A stretch of 64,000 nt of DNA from Candidatus Zixiibacteriota bacterium. GTDB taxonomy: Bacteria > Zixibacteria > MSB-5A5 > GN15 > FEB-12. The stretch covers positions 1-64,000 of the forward strand of contig JAJRQO010000028.1 of the NCBI GenBank assembly GCA_024280215.1. Direction: 5' to 3'. Positions 6,482-24,080 of this stretch are shown in pieces. The notes under the pieces were generated by a model, which did no database searches, was not told where the DNA came from, and worked only from the letters and a program-made list of their open reading frames with translations. Each line of letters starts with the position of its first letter. The stretch's first letter is position 1. The position numbers and the translations under genes are program-made.

Positions 6482-7888
6482 TTATGGGCAGGAAGCAGGA
6501 ATATCTCCGCCTTGGAACATAAATGAGACCATGGCAACAATATCAGCAATATCTATCGGAAGAACACCACCTGAGCCATCTATATCAGCTTCTTCGATAC
6601 ATGTTGGAGCTGGACCACCTTGAAATGAAAAGGCTACGAGATAAACTAAATCACCAATATCGACTGAACCAGACAAAGTACCATCATCAGCACCACTATC
6701 AACATTACCTCTTTCTCCAATACAACATCCTACTTTTATGGTATGAATTTGCGACCAATCAGTAGTTGCTCCCCAAATATCTTTTGTTCTGACACTTACA
6801 TCAAAGGTTCCTTCATTAAACCATGCGTAATCGACAGTACAGGTATCGCCAGATGGAAAAGCCGCCGACCAATTTGAAGTGCCTTCACCCCAACTAAATT
6901 GATAAAATATATCATCATTTTCTGGGTCAGTAGTGCTTGCTGAGAAGCTGGTAGTTTCAAGTTTTCTAGTTGCAAGAGGTGGAGAAATCAACTCAGGAGT
7001 GACAGGAATAGAGTTTGCTGAAACTCCGTTACCAATTTTAATATAAATTTCATAGTTATTATTACCAAGATGTGTCATTTTTGTGAGTAAATCAAGATCA
7101 GGAACGACTCGACTGCCTACGGCTTCAATTCGACCACGATAGAATGACTCACTTGAAGTCCCACCAACACCGACAGTATCCCCAGCATCATAGAAAACTG
7201 AAGGGTATCCAGCAAAATTATAATCGACATTAAGTCTATTATAAGCAGTAGAATTTACATCACCAACTAAGGCAACGTGATTTATAGGGTAATCACCTGA
7301 GGCTTCAATGCTTTGTAATGCGGCACGCGCAAGAGGACAGTATTGTCACCATGTAGCCGTACCTTCTTCTATATAAACTGAGTGTGTAAAACCTGCTGAT
7401 GTTCTGTTCATACCAGGTTGATTAGGTCGAGCCGAAGCAGATGCGTCAGCATAATAGGCATAGTAATAATAACTATTAGGTGGATAGGCGTCACAAATTT
7501 CAAAAGCGCTGGTGAAAATAGCAACGACAGTCCCAATATTTTCAGATGAAAGATTTGAAAAACCCGATGTCGAACCGTCCCAAGTGATGGTCGTATCCCA
7601 AATAGTTGCATCAGCAATATTTAAGTCAGTTACCATTGGATAGACAAGATGAGCGTTGTCATAAGCGTTTCCTGTCAAATCATTCCATCTTGAAACTGGT
7701 TCTACAATGTGTACTTTAATTGAACCAACATATGCAGCCTTGGTTCCATCGGTAGATTGATCATTATTTTGGTTTTCAATTATGTTCGATGGTTCTCGAA
7801 CAAGAGATACATTCGCTGAGGCAGTATTAACAAAAGCAAAAAGCATAAAACATGTTATTCCCCAACAGGTGTAGTTCCTGATGTTCAT
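6482..7888 (-). CDS. secreted thioredoxin-like protein, candidate selenoprotein (Sec181), with dockerin-like tail
   Basis: Read as one gene this is 469 codons interrupted by a single in-frame TGA at 7348-7346. Both sides are in the same frame, and the 89 codons after the TGA (7345-7079) have no stop and no earlier ATG. Around the TGA the text is YIEEGTATW-[TGA]-QYCPLARAAL. This is the active-site loop of a thioredoxin-like domain whose CxxC would be CQYC, so TGA stands where the first catalytic Cys belongs. The domain continues with a typical thioredoxin pattern, including the cis-Pro segment AGYPSVFYDAG. Next come an Ig/PKD-like unit (about residues 290-385) and a dockerin-like tail (GNVDSG ... 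VDIGDLVYLVAFSFQGG ... DIADIVAMVSFMFQGG). A signal peptide occupies residues 1-25 and AAAGGAG precedes the ATG. If not a selenoprotein, it is a gene with a nonsense mutation or sequence error. Confidence 0.8.
7319..7348 (-). promoter_or_regulatory. candidate bacterial SECIS hairpin after in-frame TGA
   Basis: Reading the minus strand, TGA (7348-7346) is followed after 14 bases by TGCG-CGTGC-CGCA. This is a 4-bp GC-rich stem (7331-7328 with 7322-7319) with a five-base loop whose second base is G. The loop starts 18 bases after the TGA. A short apical stem, a G at the start of a small loop, and this spacing match what is described for bacterial SECIS elements. The lower stem is weak, so this is suggestive rather than proof. 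Confidence 0.45.
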
Positions 7889-8005: not shown

Positions 8006-9205
8006 TTATCTTAAATTTAGACCCATTGAGACAGTAAAATCAGTATACGTATAATTTGCGATGTTTGATTTATTATCAGTATAATCAAATGTTAGTGATG
8101 GTACAAGTAACCGTCCCGAAGATGTTGCTATCGGTGTTGAAAAAGTAGCGAAAATTCGGTACTTGTCATCTTTTCGAACTTTAGAAAATTGAGTATGTAT
8201 GATTTGAACTTCTTCTTGTAAAAATATGTCAAATATCGTTTCAGATTCCATTGTATTTAAATATATAGAGTTCCAATATCCCCCGCCAATTTTTACAATA
8301 GTAAATGGAACGATATATGTTTTTAAAATAGCCTGAACAGAATTACCATCATAAGAAGAGACCCAAGGGGAGAGATACCCAGTCGAAGCTCCAAATAGGA
8401 GTGCAGAATCTTTTAGGTCGGTGAACTGTCGAAAATTATAGCTCATCGAAATCCCTGTTTTATCAAAAATAGGTCGAGAGTACCTGATTGAAAAATAATA
8501 GGAATTCAAATCAGCTTCTTCTAAGAAAGCGTAGCCATCTTCAGTAGCACGTATAGGATAATAGCCAAATGGTTCAGAGAACTCTGGAAGATAATCATAC
8601 TTTTCCAATGTATACCCAGCTTCTATATCGATGGCATTTTTACCAAAAAATGAAAAATTGATTCCTGTAAACAAATCTACTGGAGTTTTGTCAGAAATAG
8701 AATCAGATGTGTAGCCAGTGAGTGTATACTTAATACCACTGCGGATATTTGTCTTTGCATTTAGTAGATAGCCAAAAGAAAGAGTTCCGTTAATGTTTTT
8801 ATCGGCATATTCAGAGCTATATGAACGTAAGCTTATTATTGCTACTGTTGTAGATTCTTCTTCATAGCTGTATTCTTGGTAGTTAATATTCATGTAAACT
8901 GAAAACTTTGATGAATCATTTAATGGAAGAATCGTAACTCCAGCACCGTAATTAAGATTTGTTAAGCTACTGTTCTTATTATATCTCTTGTATTCAGTAG
9001 AAAAATTAAACTCACTAAATGCCAATGGATAAAGATTGAGAGATGCTTTTGTTGAAGTAAAATAATCAGTTGAATCTAAATAGTTTTTATAAATATTACT
9101 AGTGTAGGTTCCATTTATAGTAATATCAGCGTTGTAAAATGACTGTCCCAAAAGCGAGCCTGTAAGTACGAGGAGAGTAATAGTTGTCAAAAGAACCTTT
9201 TTCAT
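8006..9205 (-). CDS. outer-membrane beta-barrel protein, unknown
   Basis: About 399 residues from the ATG at 9205, with a clear signal peptide (MKKVLLTTITLLVLTGSLLG). The mature part is made of alternating aromatic/polar beta strands (NITGTYTSNIY-like, FNFSTEYKRYNKNSS, KFSVYMNINYQEYSYEEES). It ends in strands with a C-terminal aromatic/hydrophobic pattern (YTYTDFTVSMGLNLR), as expected for a transmembrane barrel of the outer membrane. No specific family is recognised. The start codon overlaps the stop of the upstream small gene (TAATG), so the two are translationally coupled and probably work together. A longer reading from 9229 would add eight residues before the signal peptide and is less likely. 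Confidence 0.72.
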   Translation of the reverse strand: MKKVLLTTITLLVLTGSLLGQSFYNADITINGTYTSNIYKNYLDSTDYFTSTKASLNLYPLAFSEFNFSTEYKRYNKNSSLTNLNYGAGVTILPLNDSSKFSVYMNINYQEYSYEEESTTVAIISLRSYSSEYADKNINGTLSFGYLLNAKTNIRSGIKYTLTGYTSDSISDKTPVDLFTGINFSFFGKNAIDIEAGYTLEKYDYLPEFSEPFGYYPIRATEDGYAFLEEADLNSYYFSIRYSRPIFDKTGISMSYNFRQFTDLKDSALLFGASTGYLSPWVSSYDGNSVQAILKTYIVPFTIVKIGGGYWNSIYLNTMESETIFDIFLQEEVQIIHTQFSKVRKDDKYRIFATFSTPIATSSGRLLVPSLTFDYTDNKSNIANYTYTDFTVSMGLNLR

Positions 9206-9594
9206 TAGAAACATACTCCACCAACACAACCAGAGCTTGACGAAGCCGAAACACCTAACCCAGAATTAAAACTCGATTCAAAGTTAGATCTGTTTTGAGA
9301 AAGCATCCGTGCTTTAAATTTGTGTAGTGCAAATTGTTGAGAAACAGTAAGATTCACAGCATTCGCTTTTTTAGAAAATATTGATGCAGGTGAAAAAGTA
9401 AATGTTCGAGTATGAGATTTTATCTCTTTGACTTTTACTTGGAATTCATCGGGGATATTATTGTTGTCAAAATCTATAATATTGTCGTCAAATCCGTCAC
9501 CATCCATATCTACAAAATAACGACCACCAGCTTGCACAGAAACAGAACATAAGAGAACTGTTGCACATAAGTATAATATGATTTTTAATTTCAT
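9205..9594 (-). CDS. small exported protein with calcium-binding-type repeat
   Basis: 129 residues from ATG 9594, which is preceded by a GAGGT ribosome site; a longer frame from 9651 lacks one. The signal peptide is MKLKIILYLCATVLLCSVSVQA. The mature N-terminus carries DMDGDGFDDNIIDFDNNNIPDEF, two short Asp-rich loops of the thrombospondin-type-3/EF-hand kind that would bind calcium. The middle is basic and alpha-helical. The end is Ser-rich and closes with a CxxxxC pair (SSSSGCVGGVCF), which may form a disulfide. It is coupled by TAATG to the outer-membrane barrel gene that follows, suggesting a secreted partner or cargo of that barrel. Confidence 0.7.
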   Translation of the reverse strand: MKLKIILYLCATVLLCSVSVQAGGRYFVDMDGDGFDDNIIDFDNNNIPDEFQVKVKEIKSHTRTFTFSPASIFSKKANAVNLTVSQQFALHKFKARMLSQNRSNFESSFNSGLGVSASSSSGCVGGVCF

Positions 9595-9748
9595 CGTAAC
9601 CTCATTTTTAATTAAAGATAATATATACCATCTTGTTTTATATTCAAGCACTTTTCAAAAATTAGTATTAAAACATAAAAAAATAGTATTGAATTTAAAT
9701 ATAAAATTTATACATTGTCTTTGTTGAATGAAATTAAGGAAAGAAGTT

Positions 9749-11127
9749 ATGAAAAAAACTATTCACGTATCAGATATTATAAATAGAGAAATCTTAAAAC
9801 CTGGCTCAGTTATATATACGGCTGGTAATGCTTCTACACCACAAATTTTGTTAAAGCAATTAGGTGATGATCATTCTATAAATCATGTCGCTTTGTATTC
9901 TGTGCTCTTACTTGGTGACAAAATCGACTCGCTTTTTACTGAAGAACGATGTAAAGGACTAACGCATCGTGTAATTTTTAATTCACATCTAACAAGAGAA
10001 CCAGTCAACAAAGGATGGGCAAAATATCATCCGATGCATCTTGTCGAAATCCCTAAATATGCTCGTCAAAGTGATGGTTTTGATGTTGTCATGTTGACTG
10101 TTTCAGGGCCAGATATATCTGGACAATACAGTTTAGGGACAACAGTTGAAGGACTTCTTGCCGCTATTCGTTCGGCAAAAGATAAAGGTGGGATTGTCAT
10201 AGCAGAGCGTAACAAAAAGATGCCATTTGTACTTGGTTCCACTATACCAGCTGAAAGTATTGATTATCTAATAGACACTGATTATGAATTACCCGTTTCA
10301 CCTGTCAAAGCCCCAGATGATGTTGCTCAGAAAATCGGTGATATAATTGCCGAGTTATATATACAAGATGGTTCTGGGAAGAAACCAGGGTCGACTCTTC
10401 AGTACGGAATAGGTGAAGTGCCTGAAGCAGTTACCAATGCAATTATTAAAAAAGGTGTCAAAGATTTAGGGATTCATACAGAACTTTTTTCAGGGGCGAT
10501 GAGAAGACTTATCGAACAAAATATAGTTTCTAATAAATGGAAAAAATCTGTTAACTTTGCCGTATCATCAATTTTTCTTGCTGAAAATCAAAAGGGTATG
10601 ATTGGTTGCACTATAATAGTTCGGTGCAAAGTCGTCCGTGTGATTATACTAATTCGATATTTCGTATTGCAGCACATTCAAATATGGTCTCGATAAATTC
10701 TGCTATTGGTGTTGACTTACATGGTAATATTTGGGCGGATTCATTGGATGCTCGGAAAATTTATAGTGGAGTTGGGGGACAAGCTGATTTTATTCGTGGA
10801 GCCCAGTATGCTGAAAACGGCCTCGCCATTATTGCCCTTAAATCTATGACGAGTAAACAAGTGTCAAAGATTGTCGATCGTTGTCCTGCGGGAATTACCA
10901 CGACTGCTATTCCAGCCGATCAAGTTATGATCGTGACAGAGCAAGGAGCCTTTGACCCAAGACGCTTAAGTCTGGGTGAAAGAGCTGTTGGTATTGCTCA
11001 TCTTGCAGAGCCTGAAACAAGAGAAAAATTCTTAGAATTAATCTACAATAATCCATCATTTCATAAACCGAAATTGTCTTCAAAAAATGGGCTCCCTGGA
11101 TTTACTGCTTATGATGATTTGTTTTAA
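9749..11127 (+). CDS. acetyl-CoA hydrolase / 4-hydroxybutyrate CoA-transferase-type enzyme, frameshifted
   Basis: This is a family I CoA-transferase of the acetyl-CoA hydrolase/transferase (Cat1/Cat2, AbfT-like) branch, about 459 residues when the two frames are joined. It contains AGNASTPQILLKQL near the N-terminus and LQYGIGEVPEAVTNAI. The catalytic-Glu segment is DLGIHTELFSGAMRRL and the CoA-site motif is YSGVGGQADFIRGA. The expected order FLAENQK-G-YDWLHYNSSVQSRP needs a minus-one shift near 10591-10597; the zero frame otherwise stops at 10696. A GGG run (one G short of GGGG) lies at the break, so an indel or sequence error is the simplest cause, but A-AAG-GGT there is also a slippery heptamer. 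ATG 9749 has AAGGAAAG in front of it and is preferred to ATG 9728. Confidence 0.8.
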
Positions 11128-23291: not shown

Positions 23292-24080
23292 CTAATTAGT
23301 AATTATAACGTCAGAGTTACCGCTATCAACTTTAGGTTTAGAAAAACTTAGTTTAAATTCTTTTGCATTACGTGATATAATCATTGTAATCATATCACCA
23401 TATTTGATATTATTATATATTGTATTTAATTCTTTTGAAGTGAGAATTTTATCACCGTTTATTGATATGATAATGTCTCCATCTTGTGGTTTTTCACCAT
23501 CTATAATTTGTTCAAACTCAGGGACTAATGCTAAAACCGTAACTCTGTTATCAATATCTTTTAGTATCATTCCGGCTTCAAGCATGAGAATGTCTTTCAT
23601 CTCGACACCATCTTTCATTATAGATGTCTCATTATCTGTACCATCTCCATCGATTGTGGTTGTCATCATCATCATATTTCCACCATCTGACGGGTCAGCT
23701 TTTGGAAAGGAAACAATCAGCATTTCTTTACCACGTCTAACACCAAAGCTTATTTCACCTCCAATTTCTACAGCATCCATTGCAGCGTTTAAGTCGTCAA
23801 CGGTCTTAACTTTTTTACCATTACACATTATGATCTTATCTTGATTTTGGATATCTACATTTTTATATTTTTTGTCTCGATTGCTTTTGTCAGGAACTAT
23901 CTCGATAACGAGTCCTTTTTCGCCACCTTTAATGATTGCACCTAAGCCCATGACAATTGCAATTTCACCATCTTCAGATTCAAATGTCATTCTTTTTGTA
24001 TGTTGGGCAGACCCCGGTTGTGCAAAAATTAAAAACAGAAAACAGGTAGTCAGTAACATTGATATTGATTTGGATTTCAT
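23292..24080 (-). CDS. periplasmic double-PDZ-domain protein
   Basis: 262 residues with a signal peptide (MLLTTCFLFLIFAQPGSAQ). Two PDZ-like units are visible. The first is GLGAIIKGGEKGLVIEIVPD ... DKIIMCNGKKVKTVDDLNAAM. The second is MILKDIDNRVTVLALVPEFE ... GDIIISINGDKILTSKELN. There is no protease domain, so it is a binding adaptor rather than a DegP-type enzyme. It is the first gene of the exporter operon, immediately downstream of the phased GTTAA repeats shared with the divergent two-component system. Confidence 0.8.
   Translation of the reverse strand: MKSKSISMLLTTCFLFLIFAQPGSAQHTKRMTFESEDGEIAIVMGLGAIIKGGEKGLVIEIVPDKSNRDKKYKNVDIQNQDKIIMCNGKKVKTVDDLNAAMDAVEIGGEISFGVRRGKEMLIVSFPKADPSDGGNMMMMTTTIDGDGTDNETSIMKDGVEMKDILMLEAGMILKDIDNRVTVLALVPEFEQIIDGEKPQDGDIIISINGDKILTSKELNTIYNNIKYGDMITMIISRNAKEFKLSFSKPKVDSGNSDVIITN

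Follow-up and report, generated by a model that had tools for sequence, protein, structure and literature searches.

A probable selenocysteine-containing thioredoxin-fold protein and its three-gene cassette in Candidatus Zixiibacteriota

In a 64,000-nucleotide stretch of a Candidatus Zixiibacteriota genome (assembly GCA_024280215.1, contig JAJRQO010000028.1, positions 1 to 64,000; hereafter the window), we identified a gene, c0, whose product very probably carries selenocysteine (Sec) at residue 181, within a thioredoxin-fold oxidoreductase domain, and which often lies in a cassette with two further genes, c1 and c2 (Table 1). The c0 frame runs from ATG to TAA with one internal TGA, at codon 181, and no further stop; its 469 codons, stop included, specify 468 residues beginning MNIRN, and a ribosome-binding-site-like AAAGGAG lies directly upstream of the ATG. 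The active-site stretch reads GTATW-U-QYCPLARAAL, with AGYPSVFYDAG further downstream. The initial annotation had described both this motif and a single TGA splitting an otherwise open gene of this length, and both descriptions hold when the frame is re-read and translated. Ordinary annotation would cut members of the family into two short genes. The window contains only one other long frame split by a TGA, at 23842 on the plus strand; it lies opposite a real minus-strand gene and proved spurious.

Table 1. Positions in the window of c0, its features, and the accompanying cassette genes
Feature	Position	Strand	Basis or remarks
Selenoprotein gene c0	6482..7888	-	Signal peptide, N-terminal domain, UxxC thioredoxin-like domain, PKD-like domain, and dockerin-like tail
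TGA codon 181, predicted selenocysteine, first position of UxxC	7346..7348	-	TGA, TGC, or TGT in 86/86 homologues
SECIS-like hairpin UGCG-CGUGC-CGCA	7319..7331	-	Loop 18 nt past the TGA, with G as its second base; window copy weak
Probable Sec-type signal peptide, residues 1-26 (...TASA)	7811..7888	-	Read from sequence
Thioredoxin-like domain, residues ~165-262 (U181, C184, P229)	7103..7396	-	Model pLDDT 86, pTM 0.78; structural matches
PKD-like domain, residues ~293-385	6734..7012	-	Weak for the window protein; 4xed match, E 2e-9; 22/28 members
Dockerin-like tail, residues ~390-464	6497..6721	-	Pfam Dockerin_1 in 11/28 members; similar tails in the genome
Cassette gene c1, ~400-aa outer-membrane-barrel-like protein	8006..9205	-	Barrel nature predicted from sequence character
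Cassette gene c2, small secreted protein with DMDGDGFDD motif and C-terminal CVGGVC	9205..9594	-	Sequence

That the frame stays open on both sides of the TGA would also be expected if read-through or a genome-wide change of code inserted Trp, Gly, or Cys at UGA, but we consider such decoding highly improbable. As the initial annotation had it, TGA is an ordinary stop in the window, since it terminates five of the 46 large non-overlapping open reading frames, and the genome codes for a complete Sec system. In this draft assembly (3.03 Mb in 42 contigs, 96% complete), selA (532 bits), selB (322 bits), and selD (372 bits) each score above cut-off, selA adjoins selB, and selC is present as a tRNA-Sec of 63.7 bits with a TCA anticodon; all four genes that the initial annotation had proposed to look for are thus accounted for. 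The selD gene itself has an in-frame TGA within CAGUASK (L188, G000 C39 48581-49501, minus strand), at the known Sec site of SelD. Decoding as another residue also fits poorly with a codon column that alternates with Cys only and with a hairpin specific to TGA-bearing genes, both described below. SelB exceeds its family cut-off in 114 of the 133 genomes of the phylum, and because it is near-universal there, a comparison of SelB presence with the Sec or Cys form of c0 is uninformative.

A read-through search found the c0 protein, whole or in part, in 67 of the 133 genomes of the phylum. Across 86 distinct homologues the active-site column is occupied by TGA (44), TGC (23), or TGT (19), and by no other codon; within the phylum there are 44 TGA and 27 Cys forms, and homologues from outside it (Thermoplasmata, Bacteroidales, WOR-3, and others) all have Cys. 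The second active-site cysteine, C184, and P229, at the cis-proline position, are invariant in the alignment. A tree built without the Sec/Cys column requires at least 13 Sec/Cys changes, six of them forced by starred, well-supported branches, and several genomes carry tandem Sec and Cys copies. About one-third of the members use Cys, and Sec is therefore not essential to the family. One TGA-bearing member (L055 600 onward, G013 C170) has UGSSC, that is UxxxC, with one additional residue between Sec and Cys.

These homologues also bear on the rival possibility that c0 is a pseudogene or an artefact, a normal Cys gene in which the TGA arose by nonsense mutation or through an error of sequencing or assembly. 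The assembly is a draft in many contigs, the hairpin of the window copy is weak, and errors or decay do occur nearby: a CoA-transferase-like gene at 9728-11127 (plus strand) is broken into overlapping frames of 322 and 173 aa, and the same gene is intact in the sister genome G060 (L126 5497-6918, 473 aa), which points to a frameshift or sequence error in the window. Nonetheless, the TGA is found at exactly this codon in the 44 homologues, which span different genera and families and reach down to ~30% identity, and in the sister species as well (L026), and the hairpin is restricted to TGA members. Mutations or errors would not pick a Cys column 44 times, and this explanation, which the initial annotation had left open, is contradicted and in practice excluded; we give it very little weight. 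The Sec181 that the annotation proposed is, on the other hand, well supported by the machinery, by a column of Sec or Cys in every homologue, and by the hairpin.

Bacterial SECIS elements have been defined by a stem of 4-16 bp, a loop of 3-9 nt containing a G, a spacing of 16-37 nt, and a minimum free energy of -7.5 or lower (PMC13188914). We compared the region after the codon in non-redundant members, 38 with TGA and 25 with Cys. A strong stem follows the codon in 35/38 TGA members but in only 5/25 Cys members, a G lies within the first two loop bases in 37/38 and 8/25, respectively, and all of the published rules, energy included, are satisfied by 31/38 and 5/25; the loop in TGA members mostly starts 18-24 nt from the codon. 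When synonymous codons were shuffled with the protein preserved, TGA members had a mean z of -2.18 and Cys members one of -0.20 (Mann-Whitney p 7e-9, a guide only because the compared members are related). The stems themselves vary (CAGCGCG/TGCGCTG, CGCAGCC/GGCTGCG, CAAGG/CCTTG, and AACCAG/CTGGTT) and their register shifts slightly, as expected if structure rather than protein sequence is conserved.

The window copy resembles the published elements (PMC13188914) in having a hairpin directly after the UGA, a small apical loop with a G, which in such elements often precedes a second G or a U, and a fitting spacing, but it differs in that its stem is only 4 bp and its energy, -3.2 for the hairpin alone and about -6 kcal/mol in context, falls short of the cut-off; the shuffle is not significant for this copy by itself (p 0.24). 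The counterpart in the sister genome G060 does reach the energy rule (-7.8). The downstream SECIS that the initial annotation had suggested seeking is thus represented across the family by a TGA-specific, SECIS-like structure, although the window copy misses the energy cut-off, and its hairpin is the weakest point for Sec in this particular gene.

The domain architecture is consistent with the initial annotation of c0 as a thioredoxin-like protein with a dockerin-like tail. Modelled alone, the thioredoxin-like domain gave a confident prediction with the beta-alpha-beta-alpha-beta-beta-alpha thioredoxin fold, in which UxxC opens a helix at its N-terminal end and the invariant P229, the cis-proline, precedes a strand, and its top structural matches are thioredoxins (Foldseek probability 1.00). 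It is the only part that modelled well; the full-length model, from a nine-row alignment, reached a pLDDT of just 35 and was left out of the fold search. A PKD-like domain is recognized in most of the 28 members searched and Pfam Dockerin_1 in 11 of them; a Pfam search of the window protein alone gave no Dockerin_1 match. About 50 proteins of the same genome have tails similar to that of c0, and cohesin domains are also present, which make tethering to a surface scaffold plausible. The genome also codes for DsbD_TM proteins as possible electron suppliers.

Selenoproteins with a thioredoxin fold and UxxC are already known as a kind, and the closest named one is Omp28_seleno (NCBIfam NF045500), an Omp28-related selenoprotein that corresponds to 'GOS_C' of PMC2398784 and appears in Table 1 of PMC13188914. 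It shares with c0 a thioredoxin-like fold, UxxC, the existence of Cys homologues, and a weak profile match around the active site (residues 169-246). However, at 18 bits the window protein falls below the cut-off of 200, and we therefore regard c0 as a separate family and Omp28_seleno as a distant relative. The best c0 member by E-value (6.3e-15) reaches 55.4 bits and matches best over the tail, not the active site. The family differs further in its PKD and dockerin architecture and its c2-c1 cassette, of which we found no description in the literature searched.

The Omp28 lipoproteins (NF033782) and Cys-containing thioredoxin-like proteins of Bacteroidales, WOR-3, and Thermoplasmata share the TATWCQYCP motif and the cis-proline region, and in two Thermoplasmata proteins the alignment spans nearly the whole c0 query, but all of them have Cys. 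Searches of the contigs of the Bacteroidales, WOR-3, and Thermoplasmata relatives with c1 and c2 models (E 1e-3) gave no match. Two Thermoplasmata metagenome-assembled genomes, of archaea, code for nearly full-length Cys homologues of c0 (L098 and L099), a possible case of inter-domain transfer. Classical thioredoxins (PF00085), which include an experimentally verified Sec-thioredoxin, have the same fold and UxxC position; c0, in contrast, has several domains, including an additional one at the N-terminus, as well as a surface tail, and is probably secreted, and PF00085 did not match the window protein (E up to 1) or any of the 28 members (E up to 0.01). The architecture is absent among the 119 families in PMC13188914, and a literature search on Omp28 or dockerin combined with selenoprotein returned nothing relevant. 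The statement in the initial annotation that such a protein had not been seen described thus stands for the c0 family, its multi-domain surface architecture, and its cassette, none of which we found described in the libraries and literature searched, whose coverage is incomplete; it requires amendment in that a distantly related Sec family does exist.

The conserved three-gene context was absent from the initial annotation. In the window, the c1 ATG overlaps the c2 stop (TAATG); searches of Pfam and NCBIfam matched no family for c1, and for c2 none above cut-off. All three genes are present at 37 of the 56 c0 loci examined, and c1, c2, or both at 43 (six with just one). The usual order is c2-c1-c0, with c0 first or inverted in some lineages. 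The 13 loci lacking both c1 and c2 are in some cases on short contigs and in others not (e.g., L133 and L134). By genome, c0 and a strong c2 occur together in 43, c2 only in four, c0 only in nine, and neither in 77, counts that are phylogenetically non-independent; in the four c2-only genomes, c1 is truncated, or else lies beside a contig end or runs off it. At one locus (L209 4530-5045, G049 C181), a c2 N-terminus is fused directly to a dockerin tail, which looks like what remains after loss of c1 and the greater part of c0 by deletion.

Among 36 aligned c2 proteins, D28, D30, G31, D32, G33, and D36 are invariant, as are C122, G124, and C127 at the C-terminus. Of the complete c2 proteins from cassettes, 37 of 38 end in CxGGxC and the remaining one in CVGPLC; none of the 23 c2 paralogues whose loci lack c0, nearly all of them paired with c1, has this tail. 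The genome of the window has one such paralogous c2-c1 pair (L181 6663-8304, G000 C19), whose c2 ends in CDGSGPKGPRGRGGN and not in CxGGxC. The difference in tails between cassette and paralogous c2 proteins may reflect one event between two subfamilies. A literature search for CxGGxC found no use of the motif among the matches listed.

We propose that UGA181 is decoded as Sec by the SelA, SelB, SelD, and tRNA-Sec of the genome, aided by the hairpin just downstream, and that Sec181 would be the attacking residue of the UxxC active site, beside the conserved cis-proline. Outside the cytoplasm, the protein would act as a thiol:disulfide oxidoreductase, probably held at the cell surface by its dockerin-like tail, with c1 as the outer-membrane partner. 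The exchange of Sec and Cys, the SECIS-like structure, the decoding machinery, the fold, the cassette, and the correlation of the c2 tail with c0 are evident from sequence; we infer its secretion, its tethering, the direction of its redox reaction, and c2 as its substrate. Its most likely role is redox service of a c2 dithiol at the cell surface, and the most likely client would be the C-terminal CxGGxC cysteine pair of c2; that c2 is the main client is a realistic prospect, at somewhat under an even chance. It cannot be the sole client, because 13 c0 loci lack c1 and c2, and the stand-alone genes imply that other clients exist in some species.

Those same stand-alone genes are compatible with a broader role, to which we assign a nearly even chance, in which c0 is a genuine Sec protein with many envelope proteins, or small molecules such as peroxides or metalloids, as its substrates, and in which its link to c1 and c2 is structural or regulatory only. 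Thioredoxin-fold selenoproteins are diverse in function, and the acidic DxDGDG motif of c2 could simply bind calcium. The strong conservation of the cassette, however, and the confinement of the CxGGxC tail to cassette-type c2 proteins argue against such generality and for c2 as a client. Tentatively, then, the cassette may constitute a selenium-dependent envelope redox system, in which a dedicated Sec-thioredoxin with its own outer-membrane barrel would keep the CxGGxC of a probably calcium-binding c2 in the right redox state across much of the phylum; if real, such a system would be previously undescribed.

The c0 proteins add a well-supported selenoprotein family in a phylum in which SelB is found in most genomes. 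Through the cassette, a specific motif becomes a candidate client of the predicted Sec enzyme; to our knowledge, such a candidate is rarely available for predicted thioredoxin-like selenoproteins, whose functions are mostly unknown. With exchange of Sec and Cys and conservation of the SECIS-like structure over dozens of species, the family offers a good natural set for asking why Sec replaces Cys.
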